In this document: positions 11,915-33,604 of the stretch, one piece after another
Layout: every line of letters starts with the position of its first letter
How positions within the stretch are numbered: position 1 is the stretch's first letter
NCBI GenBank assembly: GCA_021163105.1
Contig: JAGGXJ010000128.1
Coordinates: 1 to 36,239 of the forward strand
Length of the DNA stretch: 36,239 nt
Source of the DNA: Syntrophobacterales bacterium
GTDB lineage: Bacteria > Desulfobacterota > Syntrophia > Syntrophales > UBA2210
Direction: 5' to 3'
Translations under genes and position numbers: made by a program
The notes under the pieces: model-generated
What the model was told of the DNA's origin: nothing
What the model saw: only the letters and a program-made list of their open reading frames with translations
The model's database searches: none

Positions 11915-12898
11915 TCACTTATCATCCAGAAAAAAAAGCAGCTTTTCTGCAGCGGCGGTTGGTGTGATTGTCCCTTCTTCCACCTCTTTCTCAATTTTCG
12001 GTACTATCTTTTTGGCATAAGGATTTTTGTAAAACCACTCGACGAGACCTTCTTTTACCAGAAACCACATCCAGTCAAGGGTCTGCTTTTCACGCTTCAT
12101 CTCCAGCTCTCCGGTAGACGACAGCTTTTTTCTGTGCTCCAGAACGGTATCCCATATCTCATGTATGCCGGTCAAATTCAAGGCACTGCATTTAAGAACA
12201 GGCGGAGACCAGTTGGGGGAAAGGGGGATTGAAAAATGGAGGGCTGCTTCGCACTGCTTTCTTGCAAAATCCGCTCTTTGAATATTATCGCCGTCCGCCT
12301 TGTTGATAGCAATGGCATCAACAAGTTCCAAAACGCCCTTTTTCATTCCCTGAAGCTCATCTCCTGCCCCGGATATCATCAGCATCAGGAAGAAATCAAC
12401 CATGGAAGCCACCGCCACCTCGGATTGACCGGAGCCCAGCGTTTCAACAATCACCACATCAAAGCCGGCTGCCTCACAGACGAGCATTGTTTCCCTGGTC
12501 TTGCTTGCAACGCCCCCTAAAGTGCCTCCTGAGGGAGAAGGCCGGATAAAGGCATTTTTCTCAACAGAGAGTTTTTCCATGCGGGTCTTGTCCGCCAGAA
12601 TACTTCCCCCGCTCCTTATGCTGCTCGGATCAACAGCAAGGACAGCCACGCTGTATCCCTTTTTCACCAGCAGCATGCCGAGTGCCTCTATGAAAGTGCT
12701 CTTTCCGGCGCCAGGCACCCCCGTTATCCCGAGACGTATTGCCTTTTCTGTATGAGGGAGCAGTTGATCGACAACAAGCCGCGCAGCCTTCTTGTGAGCA
12801 GGGAGTGCGCTTTCAATCAGAGTAATGGTCTTGGAGATCATACGCCTGTCATGCCTCAGCACACCTTCTATATAAGGCTGGATATCGCTTGATATCAT
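11915..12898 (-). CDS. meaB: Methylmalonyl-CoA mutase-associated GTPase MeaB
   Basis: P-loop [54 protein letters not shown]. Start overlaps the mutase stop (ATGA). Confidence 0.93.
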
Positions 12899-15024
12899 GT
12901 TCTCTGCTCCAGGATGTTGAGAGTCTTGTTTGCGGAATCCAGAATTGGTGTCCCTGGACCAAATACTGCCGCCACACCCGCACCATAGAGAAAGTCATAA
13001 TCGCTGTGGGGAATTACTCCACCTGCAACGACCTTGATATCTTCGCCACCCTCTTCCGTGAGGCTTTCTAAAAGCTGAGGGATAAGGGTCTTGTGACCGG
13101 CAGCCAGACTTGAGACACCGATGACATGAACATCGTTTTCTACAGCCATTCTGGCCGCTTCCCCGGGAGTCTGGAACATGGGACCGATATCCACGTCAAA
13201 CCCAAGATCCGCATAAGCTGTAGCGATCACCTTGCTTCCCCGGTCATGACCATCCTGACCCATCTTAACAACAAGTATCCGTGGCCGTCTGCCCTCTTTC
13301 TTCATAAAATCACTTGTTCTCTTTTTTACGGCGTTAAATATTTCACTGTCCATGTACTCAGAGGCGTAGGCTCCGGATATACACTGGGTTGTTGCCGTAT
13401 AGCGTCCGAAGACTTTCTCCATGGCGTTTGAAATTTCTCCAACCGTTGCTCTGGCCCGCGTGGCGGATATTGTCACTTCCAGAAGGTTTCCCCCGGATTC
13501 GGCACAGTTTGTTACGGCCTCCAGGGCCTTCCGCACGGTGGCAGAATTTCGTTTTGCCTTCAGATCCTTTAATCTCGCAACCTGCTCGTCCCGAACAGTC
13601 TCCGACACTTCACGAATATCATCAAGAGGTTCTTCCTCTATCTGATATTTGTTTACACCCACGATCACATCCAGCCCCTGGTCTATCCGGGCCTGCTTTC
13701 TGGCTGCCGATTCCTCTATTCGCATCTTTGGCATTCCGGTTTCGATGGCCCTGGCCATGCCGCCCAACTCCTCGATCTCATCAATAATCTTTCTCGCCTC
13801 CCGGATGATCCCATCTGTCAGGGCCTCGACATAATAGGAGCCGCCCAGTGGATCAATAGCGTGACAAATCTGGGATTCTTCCTTGACAATTATCTGAGTG
13901 TTCCTCGCGATCCTGGCGGAAAAATTCGAGGGTGTGGCCACAGCCTCATCGAATGAATTGGTATGGAGAGACTGTGTTCCGCCCAAAACCGCGGCCATGC
14001 ATTCAATGGTGGTGCGTATAATATTGTTATATGGATCCTGCTCGGTCAGACTCCAGCCGGATGTCTGGCAGTGGGTTCTGAGCATGGCGGATTTTGGGTT
14101 TTGAGGGTTGAACTTGCCAATTAATTCATGCCAGAGAAAACGGGCGGCCCTCAGCATGGCAATCTCCATAAAGAAATTCATCCCGATCCCGAAAAAAAAT
14201 GAGAGTCGTGGCGCAAACGCGTCTATGTCAAGCCCCGCGTCAATGGCCGCTTTCACGTACTGCACCCCGTCGGCCAGAGTAAATGCGGTTTGAAGCACGG
14301 AGTTTGCTCCGGCCTCCATCATATGGTAACCGCTGATACTAACGGTATTGTACATGGGCATATTCTTCGAACAGTACCCGATAATATCCGAAACAATTCT
14401 CATGGAAGGGCCGGGAGGATATATGTATGTATTTCTCGTGAGATACTCTTTGAGGATGTCGTTCTGTATGGTCCCCGAAAGCTTATCCTGAGCAACTCCC
14501 TGCTCTTCCGCGGCAACGATATACCCGGCCAGACAGGGAAGAACGGCGCCATTCATGGTCATGGAAACCGACATCTTGTCCAGCGGGATCTGATCGAAAA
14601 GAACTTTCATGTCCTCCACGGAATCTATTGCAACGCCCGCCTTTCCGATATCACCGATTACCCTGGGATGATCAGAGTCATAGCCCCTGTGAGTTGCAAG
14701 GTCAAAGGCCACGGAAAGGCCCTTTTGACCGGCGGCGAGATTTCTTCTGTAAAATTTATTTGAATCTTTTGCCGTGGAAAAACCGGCATACTGACGGATG
14801 GTCCATGGTCTCTGGGCATACATGGTGGCCTGAGGGCCCCTGATATAGGGAGCAAGTCCGGGAAGGGTGTTGACAAACTCCAAACCTTCAAGATCTTCGG
14901 CTGTGTACAGGGGTTTTACCTGGATTCCCTCCGGGGTTACCCAGTTCAGGGATTCAAGCGGGTTCCCGTTTAAGCTCTTTTCTGCGAGTTTTCTCCATTT
15001 TTCTGCATCCGGATGCTCTGCCAT
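12895..15024 (-). CDS. Methylmalonyl-CoA mutase, large subunit with C-terminal B12-binding domain
   Basis: 709 aa; [24 protein letters not shown]12-binding motif [29 protein letters not shown]. Confidence 0.95.
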
Positions 15025-15078
15025 GATATTATTCCTCCTAACCCGGACAAACCGGGATCAAACAACATATGATATTTC

Positions 15079-15156
15079 ATCACGAAAGCACGAAAAACAG
15101 GATTTGATTTTGTGCCTTCCTTTTTTTTGTGATCGTTCTTAATTCTTTTGCCATTT
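15079..15156. repeat. Dispersed intergenic repeat, copy 1 (ATCACGAAAGCACGAA ... AATTCTTTTGCCATTT)
   Basis: Shares ATCACGAAAGCACGAA and AATTCTTTTGCCATTT with 33545..33604. Confidence 0.5.
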
Positions 15157-15159
15157 GTG

Positions 15160-15182
15160 CCTGTCTGCGTGCAACAGACAGG
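15160..15182. repeat. Small palindrome CCTGTCTG-CGTGCAA-CAGACAGG
   Basis: 8-bp perfect inverted repeat followed by GCAGGCAGG. Confidence 0.5.
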
Positions 15183-15254
15183 CAGGCAGGTATAAACGTT
15201 ACAGATAGAGGACTAATAAATATTACTGATTATAACGTATAGATTTGCCTGATA

Positions 15255-16184
15255 CTATTTCTTATCCGTTTCCCTTCTCAGATAATCCTCCATTCCCTTG
15301 ATACTGTTAAAGGCAAAAAATTTTTCCCTGTTTTGCACATCCTCGGGGAGGGAATGATAATAAAACATGCCTTCATCGTTTTGTAGTATTTCATCAAAGA
15401 TATCCTTGCAGGGCAATTCATTGCCCGGACAATAATGCTTTTTTACGCTGGCGAGCCAGGTATCTGCCTGGCTGAAGGCGGCATTAAATACGTTCTCTGG
15501 ATCATGTCTGCATCCGTAGTGGGCAAAACATATATGGGAAACATCAAGAGAAGCAAGCTTTTTCAGGGAATTTCTGTAAGCCTCATACTTAAATACGGAA
15601 GGCGTTGCTATTCTGAGATAAAATCTGTTTTTCAATGGATAACTCACCCCTGCAGCCTCTCCGGTAAAAAGAATATCACCGGCACGATAGCAGAGGTGAT
15701 GGGGTGTATGCCCGGGTGTTTTGAGCGCACCTATTACGATTTCTCCAGCCTCGATAGAGTTTCTGTATCCAATATTCTTTACAGAAACAGGAACGATCTC
15801 CCCGTACATTTCTGCAAGCTTGCCCAGTGTTCTTCTGGATTCTTTCCACAGTTTTGCAGGATTGATCATATGACGAATCCCGTCAGGATGACAGATGACT
15901 TGCGCGTCCGGGTAGTGCTTCAGCAACAATCCGGCACCGCCTGCGTGGTCAATATGGATATGAGTCAGGAGAATGTAATCTATCTTCTTGACCCCACACG
16001 TTGTCAGGGCATTCAGAAGGATGGGAATAGAAGATCGGGGGCCGGGATCTATAACGACCGTACAATTACCGTTAATAAATATCCAGCTGCTGATAAAATT
16101 CCGGAATCCCTCTACTGGTTGATCCAGATCCACCAGGTAGAGATTCTCCATGGTTCGATGAACTATGTCATGTGTAATGTGCAT
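15255..16184 (-). CDS. MBL-fold metallo-hydrolase
   Basis: ORF 15255..16313 overlaps prpE; the internal ATG at 16184 (MHITHDIVHRTMENLYLVDL) removes the overlap. Motif LLTHIHIDHAGG, TPGHTPHH. Confidence 0.78.
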   Translation of the reverse strand: MHITHDIVHRTMENLYLVDLDQPVEGFRNFISSWIFINGNCTVVIDPGPRSSIPILLNALTTCGVKKIDYILLTHIHIDHAGGAGLLLKHYPDAQVICHPDGIRHMINPAKLWKESRRTLGKLAEMYGEIVPVSVKNIGYRNSIEAGEIVIGALKTPGHTPHHLCYRAGDILFTGEAAGVSYPLKNRFYLRIATPSVFKYEAYRNSLKKLASLDVSHICFAHYGCRHDPENVFNAAFSQADTWLASVKKHYCPGNELPCKDIFDEILQNDEGMFYYHSLPEDVQNREKFFAFNSIKGMEDYLRRETDKK

Positions 16185-16218
16185 GGGAAAACATTCCTGA
16201 TAATTATTAACTTTGAAT

Positions 16219-18111
16219 CTACTCCCCGCAACCCATCTCCTCCGCTGCTCTGGTAATATCGTCAAGTACCGATGCATCTTCGATGGTTGAAGGAATTGAA
16301 TAGTTTTCTCCATCTACTATCTTGCGCATGGTTCCTCTTAAAATTTTTCCTGAACGGGTCTTTGGCAGGGCATCTACAAACGCACATTTTCTGAAACAGG
16401 CAATGGCCCCGAGATCAGAGCGAACCATTTGCACCAGTTCCTCTGCCATTTTATCCTGATCGCGATTCACGCCGGCCTTTAAAACAGCAAAGCCGACAGG
16501 CACCTGACCTTTAAGCTGGTCGTTTGCTCCAAGAACGGCACACTCCGCCACATCTCTGTGCCTGGCAATAATTTCTTCCATGGCGCCGGTGGAGAGCCTG
16601 TGGCCTGCCACATTAATGACATCATCCACGCGACCCATGATAAAAAGATAATCGTCTTCGTCTATATAGCCGCCATCGCCTGTAACATAAAAGCCGGGTA
16701 TTTCCGTAACATACTCAAGAAAACGCTTGTCATCGTTCCATAGTGTAGGCAGGCATCCGGGAGGAAGGGGAAGCTTGATAACCACGTATCCTTCCTGTCC
16801 GCGCGGAAGCTCATTGCCCTCGGCATCCACAATCTGTACATTGTAACCTGGGATAGCCTTGGTGGGAGATCCCGCTTTAACGGGAAACGGTTCGAGCCCC
16901 ATACAGTTGCCGGCAATACCCCACCCGGTTTCCGTCTGCCACCAGTGATCGATAACGGGTATGCCCAGTAAACTGCTTGCCCAGTCATACGTATCGGGAT
17001 CAAGCCTTTCACCTGCCAGAAAAAGATATTTCAGCGATTTGATATTATATTTCTTTAGATAAACGCCTTCAAAATCTTCTTTCTTGATTGCCCGAAATGC
17101 CGTCGGCGCCGTAAAGAGAACAGAGACACCATGCTCGGAAATGACCCGCCAGAAGGCGCCCGGATCCGGTGTTCCAACAGGTTTCCCCTCATAAAGAACG
17201 GTTGTGCATCCCGTTAGCAGGGGCGCGTAGACGATATATGAATGACCGACAACCCAGCCGACATCCGATGCCGCCCAGTAAACTTCACCCGGTTTTATAT
17301 CGTAGAGATATTTCATGGACCATTTCAGGGCAACGGCATACCCCCCATTATCCCGCATGACCCCCTTTGGTTTTCCTGTTGTTCCGGATGTGTAGAGGAT
17401 ATAAAGCGGATCCGTCGCGGATACTGTGACGCAATCTGCGGGATGTGCCTTTTTTATTTCTTTTTCCCAGTCAAAATCACGGTTCGGAACCAGCGAAGAT
17501 TCAGCCTGTGGTCGCTGGAATATTATGCATTTTTCCGGCTTATGATCGGCAATCTGAATTGCCTCATCCAGAAGCGGCTTATAGGGAATAACCTTTTTCC
17601 CTTCAATGCCGCACGACGCTGAAACAATAAGCTTGGGTTTGGCATCATCGATGCGGATGGCCAGCTCATTCGGAGCAAATCCGCCGAATACAACCGAATG
17701 AACGGCGCCGAGTCTTGCGCAGGCAAGCATCGCAACCACCGCCTCCGGAATCATCGGCATATAAATAATTACGGTGTCTCCCTTTGTGACACCAAAACCG
17801 CTCAGCACACCGGCAAACCTTGATACCTTTTCCAGAAGTTCTCTATAGCTGATTTTCCTTATAGTTTTTGTCACCGGACTGTCATAGATAACTGCCGTTT
17901 GATCACCCCGGCCATTTTCGACATGATAATCCAGAGCATTATAGCAGGTGTTAAGCTCTCCTCCCGTAAACCATCGATAAAAAGGTTTACGGCTGTCATC
18001 CAGAACCCTGTCCCACTTCTTTACCCACTGAACTTTCTCCGCCGCCATCCCCCAGAAAATCTCCGGGTCATTAATGGATTGTTCATAAAACCCTGAATAC
18101 CTGTCTGACAT
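16219..18111 (-). CDS. prpE: Propionate--CoA ligase (AMP-forming acyl-CoA synthetase)
   Basis: 630 aa; YTSGTTGKPKGVMRDNGGYAVALKWSMKYLYDIKPGEVYWAASDVGWVVGHSYIVYAPLL; PKTRSGKILRGTMRKI. Confidence 0.88.
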   Translation of the reverse strand: MSDRYSGFYEQSINDPEIFWGMAAEKVQWVKKWDRVLDDSRKPFYRWFTGGELNTCYNALDYHVENGRGDQTAVIYDSPVTKTIRKISYRELLEKVSRFAGVLSGFGVTKGDTVIIYMPMIPEAVVAMLACARLGAVHSVVFGGFAPNELAIRIDDAKPKLIVSASCGIEGKKVIPYKPLLDEAIQIADHKPEKCIIFQRPQAESSLVPNRDFDWEKEIKKAHPADCVTVSATDPLYILYTSGTTGKPKGVMRDNGGYAVALKWSMKYLYDIKPGEVYWAASDVGWVVGHSYIVYAPLLTGCTTVLYEGKPVGTPDPGAFWRVISEHGVSVLFTAPTAFRAIKKEDFEGVYLKKYNIKSLKYLFLAGERLDPDTYDWASSLLGIPVIDHWWQTETGWGIAGNCMGLEPFPVKAGSPTKAIPGYNVQIVDAEGNELPRGQEGYVVIKLPLPPGCLPTLWNDDKRFLEYVTEIPGFYVTGDGGYIDEDDYLFIMGRVDDVINVAGHRLSTGAMEEIIARHRDVAECAVLGANDQLKGQVPVGFAVLKAGVNRDQDKMAEELVQMVRSDLGAIACFRKCAFVDALPKTRSGKILRGTMRKIVDGENYSIPSTIEDASVLDDITRAAEEMGCGE

Positions 18112-18255
18112 AAACTGATTACCTCCTGCCTGATTTTTTACGCCCTAAAACTGAGGGGAAGCGCTATTTACGGATGGAGCAATCTCGTTCAAGAACACGC
18201 GGGACACTGATATCAGTCACAGGGTCTGAAATGTTTTCCCCTGTTTTCTTAAGGC

Positions 18256-18660
18256 TCAGTCCCTCTGACACAATTCAAGGAGCACGCCTCCGGCAGCCCT
18301 GGGATGTATAAAAGCAATCTTTGTGCCACCCGCGCCGCGCCGGGGCGTTTCATCAATCAGTCCGACCCCTTTGTCCTTCAGTTCTTTAAGAGCAGCTTCA
18401 ATGTCATCAACTCTCAGCGCTATGTGTTGTATTCCCTCACCATTTTTAGATATATGCCTGGCGATCGGTCCATCCGGAACGGTCGATTCCAATATCTCAA
18501 TCTCGGATTCTCCAACCGGCAGGAAGGCGGTTCGTACCTTCTGCTCTGTCACCTCCTCGGTTCCAGCTAATTCCAGACCCAATATCTGTGTATAGAAATT
18601 TGCACTTTTATCCATATTGCTGGTCGCGATACCGATATGATCCACGCACAAAATCTTCAT
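18256..18660 (-). CDS. mce: Methylmalonyl-CoA epimerase
   Basis: Glyoxalase/VOC fold MKILCVDHIGIATSNMDKSANFYTQILGLE, GEGIQHIALRVDDIE. Start refined from 18723 to the ATG at 18660. Confidence 0.92.
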   Translation of the reverse strand: MKILCVDHIGIATSNMDKSANFYTQILGLELAGTEEVTEQKVRTAFLPVGESEIEILESTVPDGPIARHISKNGEGIQHIALRVDDIEAALKELKDKGVGLIDETPRRGAGGTKIAFIHPRAAGGVLLELCQRD

Positions 18661-18797
18661 ATAAAATCTCCTTAAAATAGAGTTGTCCCACGGGTCAAAC
18701 CACTTGATGCAACAAGCACTCATTCTACTTCCGTATTACTACCACAATGGATTTAACAGACAAAGCAATTTTTGTAATGAAAAAGGATATTTTTTGC

Positions 18798-19199: not shown

Positions 19200-20348
19200 G
19201 TGAAGAAAGATATCGTGTTTGTTCAAGGTAATGAAGCCTGTGTAAGGGGAGCTCTTTATGCCGGTCTTGATTTTTTTGCCGGTTACCCGATAACCCCTTC
19301 TACAGAGATTGCAGAGCTGCTCTCAGAGCATTTGCCTGCGAAGAAGGGAAAGTTTATTCAGATGGAGGACGAGATCTCCTCCATGTGTGCCATAATCGGC
19401 GCCTCACTTACAGGAAAAAAGGTTATGACCGCGACCTCGGGACCGGGGTTTTCCTTGAAGCAGGAGGCTCTCGGCTTTGCCGTGATGACTGAAACTCCAT
19501 GCGTTATAGTTGATGTTCAGAGGGGTGGTCCCTCAACAGGTCTTCCTACGAGTGGAAGTCAGGGAGATGTTATGCAGGCACGTTGGGGAATCCATGGAGA
19601 TCATGCTATTATCGTTCTAACCGCATCCAACGGCCAGGATGTTTTTGCAATGACGGTTGAGGCCTTTAATCTGGCGGAAATTTTCAGGACACCGGTTATT
19701 TTGCTTCTTGATGAAGTTGTTGGACATACAAGGGAAAGACTTGTGGAGCCGAAGGCAGGGGAGATCAATGTAGTAGAGAGGCTGAGAACGTCCGTACCGG
19801 AAGGAACTGATTATCACCCTTATCTGCCAAGGGAGGATGGTCGCCTTCCCATGTCTGATTTTGGAGGCACTCACCGACATAATATCACAGGTCTGGCGCA
19901 TGACATGTGGGGATTTCCTTCAAACAAGCCGGATGTTGTATACGGGCTGATGCATCATCTGGTGGACAAGATTGAGACTCATGTAAACGAAATCACAAGA
20001 ATAAAGGAATTCTTTGTTGAGGATGCGGAATGTCTTCTGGTTTCCTATGGGTCTGCTGCCAGAACGGCCCTTCACATTGTAAAAAACAGGAGAGCGCGGG
20101 GGGAAAAACTCGGATTATTAGAATTGCAGACCCTCTGGCCCTTTCCTGCCAGACTTGTCAGGGAGCGATGTTCTTCTGCGAATCACATAATTGTGGTAGA
20201 AATGAATATGGGCCAGATACTTGGTGAGGTAAAAAAGGCAGTCGAGAATCCTGAAAGGGTTTTCCTTGCCAACAAGATTGACGGTGGATTTATTACACCT
20301 ACCGATGTTTTGAATTTCATAAGAATCACCCAGGGAAAGGGAGTGTAA
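19200..20348 (+). CDS. korA: 2-oxoacid:ferredoxin oxidoreductase alpha subunit (GTG start)
   Basis: GYPITPSTEIAELLSEHLP, QMEDEISSMCAIIGASLTGKKVMTATSGPGFSLKQE. Confidence 0.92.
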   Translation: MKKDIVFVQGNEACVRGALYAGLDFFAGYPITPSTEIAELLSEHLPAKKGKFIQMEDEISSMCAIIGASLTGKKVMTATSGPGFSLKQEALGFAVMTETPCVIVDVQRGGPSTGLPTSGSQGDVMQARWGIHGDHAIIVLTASNGQDVFAMTVEAFNLAEIFRTPVILLLDEVVGHTRERLVEPKAGEINVVERLRTSVPEGTDYHPYLPREDGRLPMSDFGGTHRHNITGLAHDMWGFPSNKPDVVYGLMHHLVDKIETHVNEITRIKEFFVEDAECLLVSYGSAARTALHIVKNRRARGEKLGLLELQTLWPFPARLVRERCSSANHIIVVEMNMGQILGEVKKAVENPERVFLANKIDGGFITPTDVLNFIRITQGKGV

Positions 20349-20351
20349 AAA

Positions 20352-21155
20352 ATGGCAGTCAAAGACTATATCAGAAAGAGATTTTTCCCTCATCTGTGGT
20401 GCCCTGGTTGCGGTCATGGAACTATAATGACTGCCATTATTCGTGCAATTGAAAACCTCGATTTGAAAAAGAATAACATGGTTGTAGTGTCGGGTATTGG
20501 ATGTTCCGCCCGTATCAGTGGCTATCTTGATTTTCATACCATGCATACACTACATGGCCGGGCTCTTGCCTTTGCCACCGGTGTCAAACTGAGCAGGCCG
20601 GAACTTACCGTACTGGTCCCCATGGGAGACGGTGATGCCTGTGCTATTGGCGGGAATCATTTTATCCATGCGGCGAGACGTAATATTGATGTAACGGCCA
20701 TTATCATGAACAACAACATCTATGGTATGACAGGAGGCCAATATTCTCCCTTGACGGAATACGGAGACCTCGCCACGACCGCGCCCTATGGGAATATAGA
20801 TCATTCCTTTGATGTAGTTAAGCTTGCAACCGGTGCGGGGGCATCCTTTGTTGCCAGGACGACAACCTACCACGTTAATCCAATGATAAAGATATTGGAG
20901 AAGGCCATTATGCATAAGGGGTTTTCGGTTGTCGAAGTTTTGTCTCAGTGTCCAGAGCAGTTTGGCCGAAGAAACAATATTCCCAGTGCAGTGGATATGC
21001 TCAATAGTTATAAGACCAATACGACTCCCATAGGGAGTAAGGAAAAGGAGAAAAATCCCGATCTCATAGAACGAGGTATATTTGTCCAGGAAGAACGGCC
21101 AGAGTACTGTGCTGAATATGACAAGGTCATAGAAAGGGCTTCTAAAGGAAGGTAA
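20352..21155 (+). CDS. korB: 2-oxoacid:ferredoxin oxidoreductase beta subunit (TPP-binding)
   Basis: CPGCGHGTIM, GIGCSARISGY, GDGDACAIGGNHFIHAARRN. Confidence 0.93.
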   Translation: MAVKDYIRKRFFPHLWCPGCGHGTIMTAIIRAIENLDLKKNNMVVVSGIGCSARISGYLDFHTMHTLHGRALAFATGVKLSRPELTVLVPMGDGDACAIGGNHFIHAARRNIDVTAIIMNNNIYGMTGGQYSPLTEYGDLATTAPYGNIDHSFDVVKLATGAGASFVARTTTYHVNPMIKILEKAIMHKGFSVVEVLSQCPEQFGRRNNIPSAVDMLNSYKTNTTPIGSKEKEKNPDLIERGIFVQEERPEYCAEYDKVIERASKGR

Positions 21156-21158
21156 CTT

Positions 21159-21716
21159 ATGGAAAGACGTAGAATTATCCTCTCCGGTTCAGGCGGGCAG
21201 GGTGTAATTACAGCGGCCATAATACTGGCCGAGACAGCTATCCTTTATGAAGGGTTGAACGCAGTTCAATCCCAGGCATACGGCCCTGAAGCCAGAGGTG
21301 GAGCGAGTCGTTCGGATGTTATCATTTCCGATACGGATATACTGTTTCCCAAGGTTGTCCAGCCAAACATTCTGGTGTGTCTTACTCAGGAAGCATATGA
21401 TAAATTCTCCGGGCTTATCCGACCGGGGGGTTTTCTCCTGACCGATAGCCACTATGTCAAACAGAATGAAAAGATTGATGCGAGGCAGATAGAGCTTGAT
21501 ATGTACACAGAAGTTATGAATAAAATTGGAAAGCCGATTGTCTTCAACATATGTGTGCTCGGTGTCCTGATTACCTTTATCAAACTTGTTAACCCGAAGT
21601 CTATTATGAAGGTGCTGGAGACAAGGATCCCTCCCTCTTTTTTACAGTTTAACCGGGATGCCCTCGACCTGGGAATCAAAATGGCTGAAAATTATTCAGC
21701 AAAGGTGGCAGGATAA
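21159..21716 (+). CDS. korC: 2-oxoacid:ferredoxin oxidoreductase gamma subunit
   Basis: LSGSGGQGVITAAIILAETAI, QAYGPEARGGASRSDVIIS. Confidence 0.93.
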   Translation: MERRRIILSGSGGQGVITAAIILAETAILYEGLNAVQSQAYGPEARGGASRSDVIISDTDILFPKVVQPNILVCLTQEAYDKFSGLIRPGGFLLTDSHYVKQNEKIDARQIELDMYTEVMNKIGKPIVFNICVLGVLITFIKLVNPKSIMKVLETRIPPSFLQFNRDALDLGIKMAENYSAKVAG

Positions 21717-24641: not shown

Positions 24642-25640
24642 CTACCAGATTGTTACTATGGGCAGGTCACGCATTGTGACCAGACCGGGCAGCGCCTCAA
24701 ATACACGGCGCACGGCATTGACCGCGATAGCTACCGTCGCGATGTCGCCATTGGTGCCTTTCAACCTGACCTCCAGATCAGGTTTCCCGGTAATCAGGAT
24801 GGTGTCTCCATCCTCTTTTTCATCCAGGGCGGCTATGAAGGTAAGGGTCATAAATTCGCCTTTACCGGTATAGCCACGGGCTACCTGCTTAAGGCCCCTC
24901 ACATGGCCGGGTTGTACCTCAAAGTAATCGGTTTTGACTGGTGAATCGGCTACTACCGGCTCGACGCCGGATTCGTATTTTACAAAATCTTTGCCTAATG
25001 TGGAAAAGACCATTCCCATTGATTCCGGAAGTCCGACATGTCCCATGCGACCCGTTTCCATCTTTGCCTTAAACTCTTCCACCGTCATTCCTGAACCTAT
25101 CTTTGCCTGAAAAGGTCCGCGTCTCAATGAGGCATTCATGAGACGTGTAACATCAATGCGGTCTACCCGCTGACAGATAGCCGTAAGATTAAGGGGCAGT
25201 GAATCCATAAGAAAGCCTGGATTGACGCCTGTGCCCAATACGGTTTTGCCTTCATGTCTTGCGGCGGCGTCTATCCTGGCGGCGGCATCCGGGTGTGCCA
25301 GCCAGGGAAACGAAAGTTCCTCGGATGTTGAGACAATATCCAGTCCGGCTTTCAGAATTTCCATAATCTGAGTCTCAAAAAGATCGAAGAAAGATCCGGT
25401 GGTGTGAAGCACCACATCCGCCGCTGTTCTCTCCAGCACCCGGGACAGGTCTTTCACTACAGGAAACCCCGCAGGGCTGCCGAGACCGATTACCTCGCCG
25501 ACATCCATGCCTGTTTTTGCCGGGTCAATATCCACCCCGCCTACCAGTTCCATCCCCTCCCGTTCCATAATATGGCGTGCAGTAGCGCTTCCGATAGGTC
25601 CCAATCCATATTGCACCACCCGTATTGTTTTACCGCTCAT
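24642..25640 (-). CDS. 2,4-diaminopentanoate dehydrogenase / dihydrodipicolinate reductase-like NAD(P)-binding protein
   Basis: IRVVQYGLGPIGSATARHIMEREGMELVGGVDIDPAKTGMDVGEVIG; GTGVNPGFLMDSLP. ATGA overlap with the TRAP permease stop. Confidence 0.8.
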   Translation of the reverse strand: MSGKTIRVVQYGLGPIGSATARHIMEREGMELVGGVDIDPAKTGMDVGEVIGLGSPAGFPVVKDLSRVLERTAADVVLHTTGSFFDLFETQIMEILKAGLDIVSTSEELSFPWLAHPDAAARIDAAARHEGKTVLGTGVNPGFLMDSLPLNLTAICQRVDRIDVTRLMNASLRRGPFQAKIGSGMTVEEFKAKMETGRMGHVGLPESMGMVFSTLGKDFVKYESGVEPVVADSPVKTDYFEVQPGHVRGLKQVARGYTGKGEFMTLTFIAALDEKEDGDTILITGKPDLEVRLKGTNGDIATVAIAVNAVRRVFEALPGLVTMRDLPIVTIW

Positions 25641-28363
25641 TTTGCTTCTCCTTCAGTTATTTTTTTATTTCTCATGCCTTGGACTATATAAAGAGCTGTC
25701 AATATAGCAATTCCTATAAGATCACTGTAAACCTCCGGGGAAAAAAGGCAAAGGGCCGCTACGCCTGTCAGTGCCCTTTCGAGGAGAGTTGAATTGTTTC
25801 TGAAATATCCTATCACTGTAGCACCAAGGGCCACGACGCCCATCATCAGCGTTATAAATATATGCGCGAACCTGAGATAATCAAATGAAGCTTCAGGATC
25901 GAGAAGCGTCGGCAGCCACAGGATTATAGGAGCGGACACAATAATAAAGGGAACAATAAACCCCGCGGAAGCCAGACCGAAGGCGGTAAGGCCCGTCTTG
26001 AACGGATTGGCGCCGGAAATCCCTGACGCCGCATAGGCAGCAAGGGCGACGGGTGGAGTTACATCGGCGAGGACGGCGTAAAACAACACAAACATGTGAG
26101 ATACCAGGGGGTGAATGCCCCATTGCATGAGCGCCGGAGCGGCTATCATAGACGCTATGATATACTGAGCCGTCGTGGGAATTCCCATGCCGAGGATAAA
26201 ACATGCCACGGCGGTAAGCACGAGAGTAAAGAACAGTGCGACAGAGTTCGCGCTCAGGAGATGGAGTATGTCAAGGTTCATAGCAACAGACGTTATCACT
26301 TGGGCAAGCTCAATAACCGCGGCCGCAAACTTGAGCCCCAGGCCGGTAAGGGTTGTCGCTCCCACTATAAAGCCTATGCAGGCAACCGCGGCTCCGATGG
26401 CGAGGGCATTTTTTGTTCCCAGCTCCAGGGTTTCCATTATATCCGGTATTCTCATTTTACTTTCCCTGTAACGGGTTCCCATCGCGATAACAGTTATTAT
26501 TGCCCAGAAGGAACATAGAGATGGCTCCAGCCCCCATGCAAGCAACACCACAAGAATAGAGGCAGGCAATAAACCCCAAAGCCAGGAAGACCTGTCAGTT
26601 TTCTTGAAGGCATAGATAAATCCGGCGACAAGCAGGGCAACCCATACGATCGAAAAGAGGGAAAAATGATCCAGGGGATTCGCCCTGACCAGGACAGATG
26701 GAATTGCCAGGAAGATCGTGATCAGCAGAGGATATGTCTTCCTGTGTATCTGGCCTGTAGCGACGGAAAAGAAGATTCCCCAGAAGGCCGCCAGAAAAGG
26801 GCTGCTTCCCGAGATCAGGAGATATATAATAATGACGAGGGGTGTCAACAGCAGCCACCCATCCTTTATTACCTTCCACAGGTTAGGCAGCGTTTCACGA
26901 GGGAGTCCCAGCAGGCCCTGTTTTTTGGCTTCCAGATGCACCATGGTGCCCACCGCAAAGAAATAGAGTATGGCGGGAACAACAGCGCACGCGGCAATCT
27001 TGATGTATGGTATGCCTAAAAATTCCGCCATGATAAATGCCGCAGCACCCATAATAGGAGGCATCAGCTGTCCACCCGTTGATGAAGCCGCCTCGACGGC
27101 CCCGGCAAACCGGGAAGGATAACCGACACGTTTCATGAGGGGGATTGTAAACGCCCCGGTAGTGACGGTATTTGCTATGGAGCTTCCGCTTATAGAACCC
27201 ATGAAACCACTGCTTATAACCGCAACCTTGGCTGGACCGCCGGCAGACCACCCGGCAATAGCCATCGCGCAATCCATAAAAAACTGTCCCAGGCCTGTTT
27301 TGGATATAAAGATTCCGAACAGCACAAAATGGAATACAAAGGTAGCGACAACCCCGAGCGGAATGCCATATATACCCTCCGTGCCAAGATACATGTGCTC
27401 GATGATCCGCTCAATGGAATATCCCCTGTGCGCGAAAAAACTGAGTCCGGGAATATCAAGAAAATATGGACCCAGATAGCAGTTTACCAGAACAAGAAAA
27501 GCGATAATAGGAAGAGGAGGCCCTATGCTGCGTCGCGCCCCCTCCAGCACCAGCAGAATGGCAAAGGCGCCCACAACAACATCCATTTTGAGAGGCAGCC
27601 CCGCGCGTATAACCAGGCTGTTAAATTCCAGAAATATATAAACAGAGATAAAAGACGCCAAGATTACAAAAAATACATCAAAGTATGGAATATCATCCTG
27701 CTTATATGTAAACTGCCCGCCTTTTATCATCGCAAACAGCGCTCTGGCCCACTGAACGACAAAGAGCAATATCATGCTGAAAAATACACCGAACAGGAAA
27801 ACGCTCCAGAAAAAGAGGGATATGTCGGAATTGTTAAATGCTTCCCCAAGGTGCATGTACTGAAAACCGATGTGCGCGCCATAGGCCAGCACCGCGATCA
27901 TTATGGTAAATATAACAAAATCCACATATATAAAGATCCGATTCGACAGAAACTCTCTGCGCTTGAAATAAAGGATAAACAAAAACACGGCTGCCGACAG
28001 GATAAAGGTGGCATATCCTGAAAGTTCCAGAATTTCTCGAAACATGGCACCTGTAATGGCGGCGCCGATAATACCATAGATAACATCATATACAAGATCT
28101 TTTCCGGATTCCGTTTTGTCTTTTCTTATCGTATAAAGAAAAAATACAAGCGGCAGGACAAAGGCCAGATGAAATGCCCGGTGTCTCCACTCCTGAAAAA
28201 CGCCGAAGCCGGCAGTATAGATATGAAATATCGAAAGAACCTGCGTCATAAAAAAGGCAAGCTTCAGTGTAATACCCGTGAGTTTGCGGAACCGAAACTC
28301 CGGATCGTATTTGGCAATTTCTTCTATGTCTTCAGAAATGGTTACTGTTTCCTGTAGTTCCAT
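25637..28363 (-). CDS. TRAP transporter fused small/large permease (DctQM-type, TAXI-associated)
   Basis: 908 aa, highly hydrophobic; GFMGSISGSSIANTVTTGAFTIPLMKRVGYPSRFAGAVEAASSTGGQLMPPIMGAAAFIMAEFLGIPY. Confidence 0.93.
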   Translation of the reverse strand: MELQETVTISEDIEEIAKYDPEFRFRKLTGITLKLAFFMTQVLSIFHIYTAGFGVFQEWRHRAFHLAFVLPLVFFLYTIRKDKTESGKDLVYDVIYGIIGAAITGAMFREILELSGYATFILSAAVFLFILYFKRREFLSNRIFIYVDFVIFTIMIAVLAYGAHIGFQYMHLGEAFNNSDISLFFWSVFLFGVFFSMILLFVVQWARALFAMIKGGQFTYKQDDIPYFDVFFVILASFISVYIFLEFNSLVIRAGLPLKMDVVVGAFAILLVLEGARRSIGPPLPIIAFLVLVNCYLGPYFLDIPGLSFFAHRGYSIERIIEHMYLGTEGIYGIPLGVVATFVFHFVLFGIFISKTGLGQFFMDCAMAIAGWSAGGPAKVAVISSGFMGSISGSSIANTVTTGAFTIPLMKRVGYPSRFAGAVEAASSTGGQLMPPIMGAAAFIMAEFLGIPYIKIAACAVVPAILYFFAVGTMVHLEAKKQGLLGLPRETLPNLWKVIKDGWLLLTPLVIIIYLLISGSSPFLAAFWGIFFSVATGQIHRKTYPLLITIFLAIPSVLVRANPLDHFSLFSIVWVALLVAGFIYAFKKTDRSSWLWGLLPASILVVLLAWGLEPSLCSFWAIITVIAMGTRYRESKMRIPDIMETLELGTKNALAIGAAVACIGFIVGATTLTGLGLKFAAAVIELAQVITSVAMNLDILHLLSANSVALFFTLVLTAVACFILGMGIPTTAQYIIASMIAAPALMQWGIHPLVSHMFVLFYAVLADVTPPVALAAYAASGISGANPFKTGLTAFGLASAGFIVPFIIVSAPIILWLPTLLDPEASFDYLRFAHIFITLMMGVVALGATVIGYFRNNSTLLERALTGVAALCLFSPEVYSDLIGIAILTALYIVQGMRNKKITEGEAK

Positions 28364-28375
28364 ATAAAAGGCCTC

Positions 28376-28882
28376 TTACACAAAAATTTTTGCCTTCAAA
28401 TACAAAAATTCGAGAAATGGCAATTTTTCTACGGCCACCCTCAGGAGAGTGTCTCCCGCCAGAGAGGGGAGTTCCAGTACTTCACCATCTCCCAGCGTCA
28501 GGGTGTTGTCATATTTTTTATTGACCCACAGATTGAGCTCCGGCAATACCCTGTGCATGTTGGAGATACGCAGGTGGGTTCCAACATTGTAAAATTTTTC
28601 ATCTCCGGAGAGGGTGGTTGGAAGGCCGGTATTACAGGAAGAAAAAGTTGTTTCATAAAGCACGACTCGGAAGTTTTTGTCTATCTTGAAATATTCCCGG
28701 ACAGGGCTTAGTTCAACCGAATGAATATATTCCGTTGAAAATCTGTAATCCGGCCGGATTATCTGAATAAAGACCGTTCGGTTTTTCCTTGCCGCCTCTA
28801 TCCTCAATATATGACAGGGAATAAGAGAAAAGAAAAAGAGGGCGGCAATAGAAGAGAGGATGATTATTCTTTTCTTGTCCAT
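28376..28882 (-). CDS. DUF1850-type TRAP-associated protein
   Basis: 168 aa, N-terminal TM segment, FSTEYIHSVELSPVREYFKID motif. Sits between the TAXI receptor and fused permease. Confidence 0.75.
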   Translation of the reverse strand: MDKKRIIILSSIAALFFFSLIPCHILRIEAARKNRTVFIQIIRPDYRFSTEYIHSVELSPVREYFKIDKNFRVVLYETTFSSCNTGLPTTLSGDEKFYNVGTHLRISNMHRVLPELNLWVNKKYDNTLTLGDGEVLELPSLAGDTLLRVAVEKLPFLEFLYLKAKIFV

Positions 28883-28949
28883 AAATACCGGGCACCGGAA
28901 AACCGGTGCCCGGATACCTCCTTAACAAACTTAACAAATCAACCCTTTG

Positions 28950-29975
28950 CTATTTAACCAGCCCCTTCTCCCTGTAAAATTTAGCTGCGCCCGGATGAAG
29001 GGGAATCGCCACGCCGTCAAGCGCCGTGGCGAGGGTAACATCTCTACCCTTGGCATGGGCCTTCGCCATAATTTCAGCTCCACTCGGCGCCGCGGCAGCC
29101 TTGCCGCCCTTTTTACGCAGGACAAAAGATCCCTTGTCCCACAGCGCCTTTGTAAGATTGTAAACCATCTCTTCCGGAACGGCAGCATCAACAACCCACT
29201 GAGCCATTGTGGTGATGGTGGGAGTATCTGTATCCACCCCTTTGTAAGTGCCCGCAGGGATAACAACCTTAGCGTAGAAGGGATGCGCTTTGATGATCTT
29301 TGCTATGGTTTTGTCATCCAGCGGAACAAGTGTGATATCTGATGTTGTGGCCAGCTCTGTAACGGCTGCTGTGGGCCATCCCGCTGTAATGAATGCTACA
29401 TCGGCCTGCCTGTCTTTCAGCCTCTGGGTGGCGCCGGAAAAGCTGAGCCAGTCCACACCGGCGAAATCATCATAGGTAAGACCGAGACCCGCGAGAGTCG
29501 CCAGGCAGTCCACTTCGGTTCCACTTCCCCTGTCACCCGGGACCAGCTTCTTTCCCTTCAGATCCCCCCCGCTTTTTATACCGGCCCCCTCTCTGGCAAT
29601 GATCTGGATTGTCTCAGGGTAAAGAGAGGCGATGGCCCTCAGGTTTTTAACGGGTTTTCCATCAAATTGCTCGACCCCGTTATACGCATAGTAAGCAACA
29701 TTGTTCTGTACGAACCCCGATTCGATTTGGTGTGTCTTTATGAGGTTGCAATTCGCAACAGATGCGTTACCCGACTGTGCGGTAACAATAACATTGGGAA
29801 GTTTGTTGGACAGTGCCTGTGCCAGGACTCCTCCCAGGGGATAGTAAGTGCCACCCGTGCCACCTGTGGCAATCGCGAAGAAACTTTTCTTCGCCGCAAA
29901 CGACGGGCTGATAAAGACCATTGACAAAGCCACAATCAGCACAACAAACAGTACAAGGTTTCTCTTCTTAAACAT
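28950..29975 (-). CDS. TAXI-family TRAP transporter solute-binding receptor
   Basis: Signal peptide MFKKRNLVLFVVLIVALSMVFISPSFAAKK, then ATGGTGGTYYPLGGVLAQALS and AQSGNASVANCNLI. Start refined to the ATG at 29975. Confidence 0.93.
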   Translation of the reverse strand: MFKKRNLVLFVVLIVALSMVFISPSFAAKKSFFAIATGGTGGTYYPLGGVLAQALSNKLPNVIVTAQSGNASVANCNLIKTHQIESGFVQNNVAYYAYNGVEQFDGKPVKNLRAIASLYPETIQIIAREGAGIKSGGDLKGKKLVPGDRGSGTEVDCLATLAGLGLTYDDFAGVDWLSFSGATQRLKDRQADVAFITAGWPTAAVTELATTSDITLVPLDDKTIAKIIKAHPFYAKVVIPAGTYKGVDTDTPTITTMAQWVVDAAVPEEMVYNLTKALWDKGSFVLRKKGGKAAAAPSGAEIMAKAHAKGRDVTLATALDGVAIPLHPGAAKFYREKGLVK

Positions 29976-30066
29976 AATGCCTCTCCTTTCAGATAGTTTT
30001 ATTGCCTGATGTTTTCTTCCAACAGGACGCATACTGTTTAAAGAATAAAATATCTAAAGGTCATTG

Positions 30067-31315: not shown

Positions 31316-32647
31316 TCACAACTTTTTCTCCAGAATCTGGGCTGCTGTATGAATCATATCCCATGCCCCGCTAAAGGATGGACTATAGGCGAGATCCATA
31401 TATCCTATCTCGTCGAGTTCCATACCCGACCACAGACACGCGGACAGAGTGTTGATACGGCTTACCGCCCCGCTCTGTCCAACCGCCTGAGCGCCCAGCA
31501 GTCTTCCCGAATCTCTGTCGGCGATCAGTTTAAGTCCAAGTTTTTGCCCTCTGTTCATGGAACGCGCTACGGGACTTCCCCAGATTATATTGCCTGCGGG
31601 AGAATATCCGCTTTTCTCCGCCTCCTTCTCATCGAGACCGGTCATGGCAACTTCCAGGCCAAACATTTTAAAGGATTGAGCGCCCACAATTCCGGGAAAT
31701 ACCATGGGATATCCGGCAATATTACGGCCGGCTACCCGTCCCTGTTTGTTCGCCATATCCCCCAGAGGGGTATACACCCATTTTTTGCTCATTCGGTTAT
31801 ATGATTCGCAGCAGTCTCCAACGGCAAATATCTCCTCGCGTGATGTATGCTGCGAAGAATCCACACTGATGGCGCCGGATTTGCCTGTCGTAAGACCCGC
31901 TTCACGCGCCAGCCGGGTATTTGGTTTTACACCCAGGGCGAATATGATAATGTCGGTTTCTATTTCCCCCTCGCTGGTAACCAGGCACAATCCCCTTGCG
32001 CCCTTCTCAACGGCAACGGGAGAGTTATGGGCGACAAAGGATACCCCGTTTCCCGTAAGCTCCTCCAGCACCACCCCGGAAAATACCGGGTCCCACTTCC
32101 TGACCGGAAGCTCGCCCCTGTACACGATACTCGTCTCAAGGCCGATATTTCTCAGTGCCTCGCTCATCTCCATCGCGATAAATCCGGCCCCGACTATCAC
32201 CGCCCTTCGGCAGCTGTTATCCTTTATATATTCCCTGATGTTGATGCCGTCACGCAGGTTCTTCAGGGTAAAAACTCCCTCCCGCGTCGTGCCCGGTATG
32301 TCGGGCAGGGTTGCCTCGGCGCCGGTTCCCATGACAAGGAGATCGTATGGCAGCCCTTCACCATTCGCCAGAAGAACCTCTCCCCTGTCGGCCTCAATGC
32401 CTTCAACGCGGGTATCAAGCCTCACTCTTATCCCTGTTTCCTCAAATTTTTCGGGGGTTCTCGCGATAAGCTTTTTCGGGTCTTTGATTACATCGCCGAT
32501 GTAATAGGGCATAGGTCAGGCGGCATATGAAACAAATTCACCTCTCTCCAGCATAGTCACATCCAGGGATGGATTTCTCCTCTTTGCCTCCGCGGCGGCG
32601 GAAGGTCCCCCCGCGCCGCCTCCGACCACTACCAGTTTTTTATTCAT
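31316..32647 (-). CDS. Selenocysteine-containing CoA-disulfide reductase / NADH oxidase-like FAD-dependent oxidoreductase (TGA at 32516..32518 read as Sec)
   Basis: MNKKLVVVGGGAGGPSAAAEAKRRNPSLDVTMLERGEFVSYAA-[TGA]-P-MPYYIGDVIKDPKK... The N-terminal FAD motif and the C-terminal 398-aa ORF are in the same frame, separated only by TGA where this family has its active-site Cys. GGAGA RBS upstream of the ATG at 32647. Confidence 0.87.
32487..32505 (-). promoter_or_regulatory. Candidate bacterial SECIS element
   Basis: ATTACATC-GGC-GATGTAAT, 8 bp perfect stem with GGC loop; the loop begins 19 nt after the UGA, within the geometry accepted for bacterial SECIS. Confidence 0.75.
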
Positions 32648-33477
32648 CTGTTTTCTCCATGTTCTTTTTTTACAAGCATAACAATAATACCGAAGATAAT
32701 CATCACGAGACAGAGTATCTGCCCCATACTGAGTATCCCGGTGACAAAACCCACCTGGGGATCCGGCTGTCTGAAAAATTCGATGCAAAAACGCACGGCT
32801 CCATAACCGATAAGATACAGGCACAACAGAAATCCGTCAAACCGGCTTTTTTTTCTGATACCCCACAGGAGCGCGAAGAGAAATATGCCCTCAAAAAAGG
32901 CCTCGTAAAGCTGTGACGGGTGCCGAAGCCGGAGAAGCGGATCCAGGGGAAAATACATTCCCCACCATACATCCGTTACGCGCCCGTACAGTTCACCGTT
33001 CAGAAAATTTCCGATCCTCCCGAACATATAACCGAGCGGTATCGCGGGGCAGAAAAGGTCCGCGAATTGCCAGAAATTTATCGCGCGCCTCCGGCAGAAC
33101 CAGACAGATGCCAGAACAATACCCGCAAGACCGCCATGGTACGACATGCCGCTGATTCCGATAAACCGGAACCCGGCTGAAATGTCAAATGGAAATATAA
33201 TATAAAGGGGATGCGCCGCGTAGTATTCAAGATTATAGAAGAGGACATATCCCAGCCGTGCCCCTGTCAGAAGCCCCACTATCGCCCATACAAAATAGTC
33301 CTGGATGGTTTCCTTCGACCAGCCGATACCCTCGTCATTTATTCTATAGATAACAAGGGAATAGATAATGAGGAAAGCTATAAGGTACATAAGCCCGTAG
33401 TAACGGATCTGAAATGAACCTATTTCCAGAAACGCCGGGTTGATATGTTCAGGAATATGCTGCCAGAAATCGACCAA
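32644..33477 (-). CDS. lgt: Prolipoprotein diacylglyceryl transferase
   Basis: Lgt family motifs YYGLMYLIAFL, SGMSYHGGLAG, GRIGNFLNGELYG. Probable TTG start at 33477 (LVDFWQHIPEHINPAFLEIG); stop overlaps the next gene's start (ATGA). Confidence 0.9.
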   Translation of the reverse strand: MVDFWQHIPEHINPAFLEIGSFQIRYYGLMYLIAFLIIYSLVIYRINDEGIGWSKETIQDYFVWAIVGLLTGARLGYVLFYNLEYYAAHPLYIIFPFDISAGFRFIGISGMSYHGGLAGIVLASVWFCRRRAINFWQFADLFCPAIPLGYMFGRIGNFLNGELYGRVTDVWWGMYFPLDPLLRLRHPSQLYEAFFEGIFLFALLWGIRKKSRFDGFLLCLYLIGYGAVRFCIEFFRQPDPQVGFVTGILSMGQILCLVMIIFGIIVMLVKKEHGENR

Positions 33478-33544
33478 AAATGTGCCCCCACTTTTTGATA
33501 TGTTGTTATCACAAAAACACGAAAAAAGATTATATAAAAGCTTT

Positions 33545-33604
33545 ATCACGAAAGCACGAAGATACGAAATCACGAGAGTAAAGCTTCTAATTCTTTTGCC
33601 ATTT
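33545..33604. repeat. Dispersed intergenic repeat, copy 2
   Basis: ATCACGAAAGCACGAA ... AATTCTTTTGCCATTT, shared with 15079..15156. Confidence 0.5.

Follow-up and report, generated by a model that had tools for sequence, protein, structure and literature searches.

Selenocysteine (Sec)-containing members of the CoA-disulfide reductase/NADH oxidase group have been known since 2006, when Geobacter metallireducens yielded a Sec "NADH oxidase" and a single Sec member was counted (PMC1794560). An ocean survey published in 2008 likewise recorded one Sec NADH oxidase-type sequence (PMC2398784), and reviews from 2022 and 2026 list an "FAD-dependent oxidoreductase (CoA-disulfide reductase)" selenoprotein (PMC9312934, PMC13188914), for which the later review gives the motif UGxP (PMC13188914). 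The same review describes a model of the bacterial SECIS element with GG in the first two loop positions, a spacing of 16-37 nt, a stem of 4-16 bp, a loop of 3-9 nt and an energy of -7.5 kcal/mol or below (PMC13188914). Here we describe a gene of this group from an uncultured, anaerobic Syntrophobacterales bacterium related to Syntrophus, found in a 36,239-nucleotide stretch of DNA that we refer to as the window. With the published protein of G. metallireducens (WP_011365774.1), it shares the family, the use of Sec in place of the redox Cys and an origin in the same broad group of anaerobes.

The gene occupies positions 31316..32647 on the minus strand of the window, with an ATG start at 32647..32645 and a TGA terminator at 31318..31316, and would encode a 443-residue FAD/NAD(P)H pyridine nucleotide-disulfide oxidoreductase of CoA-disulfide reductase/NADH oxidase-like type. 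Translation of 32647..31316 with TGA taken as a residue yields MNKKLVVVGGGAGG...GEFVSYAA-U-PMPYYIGDV..., in which U is residue 44 of 443. Codon 44 (32516..32518, minus strand), predicted to be read as Sec and aligned with the redox-active Cys of relatives, is the sole in-frame TGA in the 443-codon frame 32647..31319. Because the gene itself terminates with TGA, UGA would still function as a stop in this same Sec gene. The original prediction had proposed a single frame of normal family length interrupted at this TGA and broken apart by the ORF track. The minus-strand translation bears out the frame, the joined product matches CoA-disulfide reductase and NADH oxidase families over its full length, and the ORF list indeed contains a headless 398-aa ORF (31316..32512) and a 102-aa ORF (32516..32824) in place of the intact gene. 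The predicted sequence context, C-G-(L/M)-P-Y, was correct in placing the TGA at the Cys position but not in the residue that follows, which is Pro rather than Gly (U-P-M-P-Y).

To compare the codon at the redox site, we read 179 loci, namely that of the window and those of relatives in GTDB genomes; a few of these genomes entered twice by two routes. The site is covered in 176 of these, and its codon is TGA in 119, TGT in 31 and TGC in 26, with no other codon represented. U44 aligns with the redox Cys of the solved relatives 6ruz, 5l1n, 4fx9 and 3kd9. The expectation that Cys would stand opposite U44 therefore holds in all four structures and in 57 of the 176 loci, and a sense codon for a residue other than Cys in this column, which the prediction had named as grounds for discarding it, occurs in 0 of 176. 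The Sec genes among the loci read contain no further in-frame stops, and many encode proteins that are 58 to 91% identical. Once identical proteins were dropped, 102 Sec and 50 Cys genes remained. A survey of the order Syntrophales found a close copy in 116 of 155 genomes, with roughly 90 of the 121 matches reading through exactly one TGA, a count for which the codon position was confirmed for the fetched loci only. By parsimony, the 152-row tree requires 18 changes between Sec and Cys, of which supported branches force 13; at equal cost these resolve into 7 gains and 11 losses, a division that depends on the midpoint rooting and the chosen cost. The predicted Sec form is dominant in the order to which the window's genome belongs, and on this tree Sec and Cys have switched many times. 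The residue after Sec varies among relatives (UP, UE, UD, US, UL, UA and UG), with the UE, UD, US, UL and UA forms lying in sister branches. One genome (G016, contig C1; loci L148 and L197) has both a Sec copy and a Cys copy (TGT) with the hairpin described below still intact, and this Cys copy looks like a recent Sec-to-Cys change.

Directly 3' of the UGA, at 32487..32505 on the minus strand, the sequence can form a SECIS-like hairpin, AUUACAUC-GGC-GAUGUAAU, with an 8-bp stem, a 3-nt GGN loop and 18 nt between UGA and loop; in relatives, it takes the form AUUACAUC-GGN-GAUGUAAU. The hairpin resembles the bacterial SECIS consensus in its place 3' of the UGA, and its GGC loop, 8-bp stem and 18-nt spacing all lie within the ranges of the published model (PMC13188914). 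Its minimum free energy, however, is -5.7 kcal/mol in 45 nt and -6.2 kcal/mol in 61 nt, weaker than the -7.5 kcal/mol limit of that model, and folding in the 61-nt context revealed no unusual stability. We consequently dropped single-sequence folding energy, weak in the wider context, as proof of a SECIS element and relied on conservation statistics instead. Within the clade sharing more than 50% identity, at least 8 paired bases are present in 68 of 68 non-identical Sec genes versus 3 of 25 Cys genes (Fisher p 1.9e-18, uncorrected for relatedness). When the comparison is restricted to 9 phylogenetically independent Sec/Cys pairs, the hairpin accompanies Sec in an average of 7.6 and runs counter to it in 0 (p ~0.008). 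Codons 48, 49, 50, 52 and 53, which form the stem, account for five of the six least variable silent sites in the Sec genes, with an entropy of 0 to 0.11 against a median of 0.87 over 130 conserved sites; in the Cys genes, codons 48, 49, 52 and 53 are ordinary, with codon 50 the exception. The stem also displays compensatory changes, from T-A to C-G at pair 14:30 in 6 genes and from C-G to T-A at pair 17:27 in 1 gene, and pair 16:28 changes from A-T to G-T in 1 gene. We conclude from stem conservation and covariation that the hairpin is probably real despite its weak energy; the RNA 3' of the UGA behaves as a selected RNA, under selection that is, by these comparisons, tied to the TGA. Among the amino-acid columns, the sharpest distinction between Sec and Cys genes is at residue 53, whose codon lies in the stem, and the hairpin RNA appears to constrain the protein at this position.

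The window's genome encodes a tRNA-Sec (77 bits, anticodon TCA), selA (602 bits) and selB (350 bits), together with a second Sec gene, a Sec-type formate dehydrogenase with the motif CARLUHSV. The fourth component that the original prediction had called for, selD, was not found in the window's metagenome-assembled genome (MAG; 97.5% complete, 154 contigs). Of 25 genomes searched across the order, 21 have a selD that scores above its family cut-off and itself carries a TGA; it is also missing from one genome of the same genus (G005), and other genomes of the genus have it in full. In those genomes, selD is flanked by LysR and thrC (threonine synthase) genes, which are present in the window's genome with other genes at the place of selD. 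By eye, the ORFs beside LysR-thrC on its contig C46 (L233) are aminotransferase-like and transporter-like. The simplest reading is that the absence of selD is a gap in a 154-contig MAG, a reading tempered by its absence from G005 as well. In 13 other genomes of the order with a TGA copy, no tRNA-Sec scored above 52 bits; most of the MAGs compared here are incomplete. We had considered the presence of tRNA-Sec as a discriminating test and set it aside as uninformative, because it occurs in 127 of the order's 155 genomes, generally including those with only a Cys form. Beyond this gene, the window has further frames broken by TGA; nearly all are antisense shadows of coding genes, and none was retained as a second selenoprotein candidate.

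Taken together, the alignment with Cys, the SECIS-like hairpin, the presence of tRNA-Sec, selA and selB and the second Sec gene back the proposal that this UGA is read as Sec, and we consider it very probable that Sec occupies residue 44 at the redox site. The missing selD, the 13 genomes with a TGA copy but no tRNA-Sec above 52 bits and the weak folding energy of the hairpin weigh on the other side. The two fragments given by standard ORF calling could also be expected if the gene were a pseudogene, if the TGA were a sequencing error or if UGA had been generally reassigned, but we reject all three as practically negligible: the same TGA recurs at 119 loci, among them genes for many divergent proteins without a second in-frame stop, and the gene terminates with TGA. 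Alternatively, read-through of the UGA could place Cys or another residue at this site, for instance when selenium is limiting or where selenophosphate is not synthesized. The missing selD in the window's MAG and in G005 would be compatible with such misincorporation, and the Cys relatives indicate that Cys works at this site. Still, with selA, selB and tRNA-Sec intact, a second Sec gene retained, full selD in other genomes of the genus and an assembly of 154 contigs in which a single gene can be missed, we regard this alternative as highly improbable. Sequence evidence supports the fold family, the decoding machinery, the hairpin and the Sec site itself; the insertion of selenium rather than another residue in the cell, the substrate and the kinetics are what we infer.

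We also compared the joined protein with known enzymes. It comprises Pyr_redox_2 and Pyr_redox_dim domains, corresponding to Rossmann folds for FAD and for NAD(P) and to a dimerisation domain. The best family models are those for CoA-disulfide reductase, NF007123 (379.4 bits, cut-off 458) and TIGR03385 (371.9 bits, cut-off 578.8), and the model for H2O-forming NADH oxidase is further off (222 bits, cut-off 600). The CoA-disulfide reductases of P. horikoshii (3kd9/5l1n) and S. aureus (1yqz) share with it the full-length fold, the single redox position near the FAD, the Arg residues and the dimer-domain Tyr; they differ in having Cys at that position, no Pro next to it and an aromatic "YYPG" loop, and the present gene scores below the equivalog cut-offs of that family. 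The best solved match, the NADH oxidase 6ruz from Thermus, aligns over the whole length with 302 bits and with its Cys opposite Sec44, but its Cys is followed by Gly and it keeps the "YYPG" loop. We take Arg23, Arg63, Tyr421 and the "YYPG" loop (residues about 363 to 366) to be the elements with roles in CoA binding. The three residues are conserved in the clade as they are in relatives, but the loop is replaced, residue 364 being non-aromatic in 91 of 93 clade members, Sec and Cys alike, versus an aromatic retained in 39 of 40 distant relatives and lost in 1 of 40. Given this replacement, CoA disulfide should not be assumed to be the substrate. Residue 12, presumably the N-terminal position of the active-site His in classical NADH peroxidases and oxidases, is Ala in 151 of 152 relatives. 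The earlier label of a CoA-disulfide reductase/NADH oxidase-like enzyme stands for the fold family, matched over its full length; the exact activity may be on CoA disulfide, O2 or another substrate, and the sub-branch is missing one part of the active site of CoA-disulfide reductases.

Some kind of small-molecule disulfide or persulfide reduction is probably its activity, although the missing aromatic loop makes CoA disulfide a less sure substrate. That the enzyme is a canonical CoA-disulfide reductase with Sec at the redox site, maintaining CoA in its reduced form, is plausible though doubtful. This reading would account for the best family models, the conserved Arg23, Arg63 and Tyr421, the full-length alignment with the P. 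horikoshii enzyme and the Ala at the presumed position of the NADH peroxidase His; the loss of the loop aromatic and the Pro in place of Gly after the redox residue argue against it, as do the scores under the cut-offs, a point tempered by the UGxP and Cys relatives tested, typical UGxP members included, which also fall below them. A role as a Sec-containing NADH oxidase or peroxidase that scavenges trace O2 or peroxide for a strictly anaerobic cell is unlikely: the closest solved relative by E-value is the Thermus enzyme and the Sec member published first was given the name NADH oxidase (PMC1794560), but the corresponding family model scores far below its cut-off. Ala at what is presumably the classical active-site His position may also speak against that role. 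We tentatively suggest another possibility, that the UPxP branch constitutes a selenoenzyme separate from CoA-disulfide reductase, having lost its CoA-side loop and acting on another small oxidised sulfur or selenium substrate. It would then be a redox enzyme common in Syntrophales anaerobes that normally carries Sec, with Cys often arising as a secondary reversal.

A mechanism for the disulfide or persulfide reduction that we favor can be proposed. With the hairpin immediately downstream of the UGA as a guide, tRNA-Sec and SelB would insert Sec at residue 44, which would serve as the single redox-active position of a one-cysteine-type flavoprotein disulfide reductase. NAD(P)H would reduce the FAD, as expected from the family, and a small oxidised thiol, persulfide or oxidant would form a mixed selenyl-sulfide (or a persulfide or selenenic acid) at Sec44. 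The FAD would then reduce this adduct, releasing the thiol or sulfide product and restoring the selenolate.

The start of the Sec gene is overlapped by 4 bases by lgt (prolipoprotein diacylglyceryl transferase; 32644..33573, minus strand), and lgt is immediately upstream in 60 of 152 relatives' loci. A thioredoxin reductase gene (trxB) lies ~1 kb upstream in 42 loci, and lgt, trxB, TerC and an rRNA methylase are recurrent neighbors of the Sec/Cys gene. We considered this conserved neighborhood as a clue to the substrate and set it aside, as it indicates a thiol-redox setting but names no substrate. In 7 loci (L078, L083, L144, L170, L076, L191 and L200), the gene directly upstream encodes a member of the C-GCAxxG-C-C family (TIGR01909), which itself includes selenoproteins. 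Downstream of the Sec gene in the window (25637-30032), we recognized by eye a TAXI-type TRAP transporter, consisting of a binding protein and a fused permease, and the same genes come after the Sec gene among the nearest relatives (neighbor clusters 11, 13 and 14). Elsewhere in the window (11915-18723 and 19200-21716), the ORF list, again read by eye, includes methylmalonyl-CoA mutase, a MeaB-type GTPase, an epimerase, an acyl-CoA synthetase and a 2-oxoacid:ferredoxin oxidoreductase, a set that, as expected, fits a propionate- or amino-acid-degrading syntroph.

The Sec form as such has already been published (PMC1794560, PMC9312934, PMC13188914), so the high novelty initially attached to this gene does not hold. 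Compared with the published UGxP family, the predicted sub-branch described here differs in its UPxP motif (UPMP), in the altered loop, from which "YYPG" is missing, and in an abundance beyond published counts, with 119 TGA loci against one each in 2006 and 2008. Our comparison with the literature covered the main texts of open-licence papers, and the UPxP branch may already be present in the supplements of the survey papers. The Sec family is likely undercounted, because ordinary ORF calling breaks the gene in two. With 102 non-identical Sec genes, 50 Cys genes, numerous switches from one state to the other and a hairpin that comes and goes with Sec, it would offer a good natural test system for what Sec adds relative to Cys in a flavoenzyme site of a single residue and for how SECIS elements are lost.
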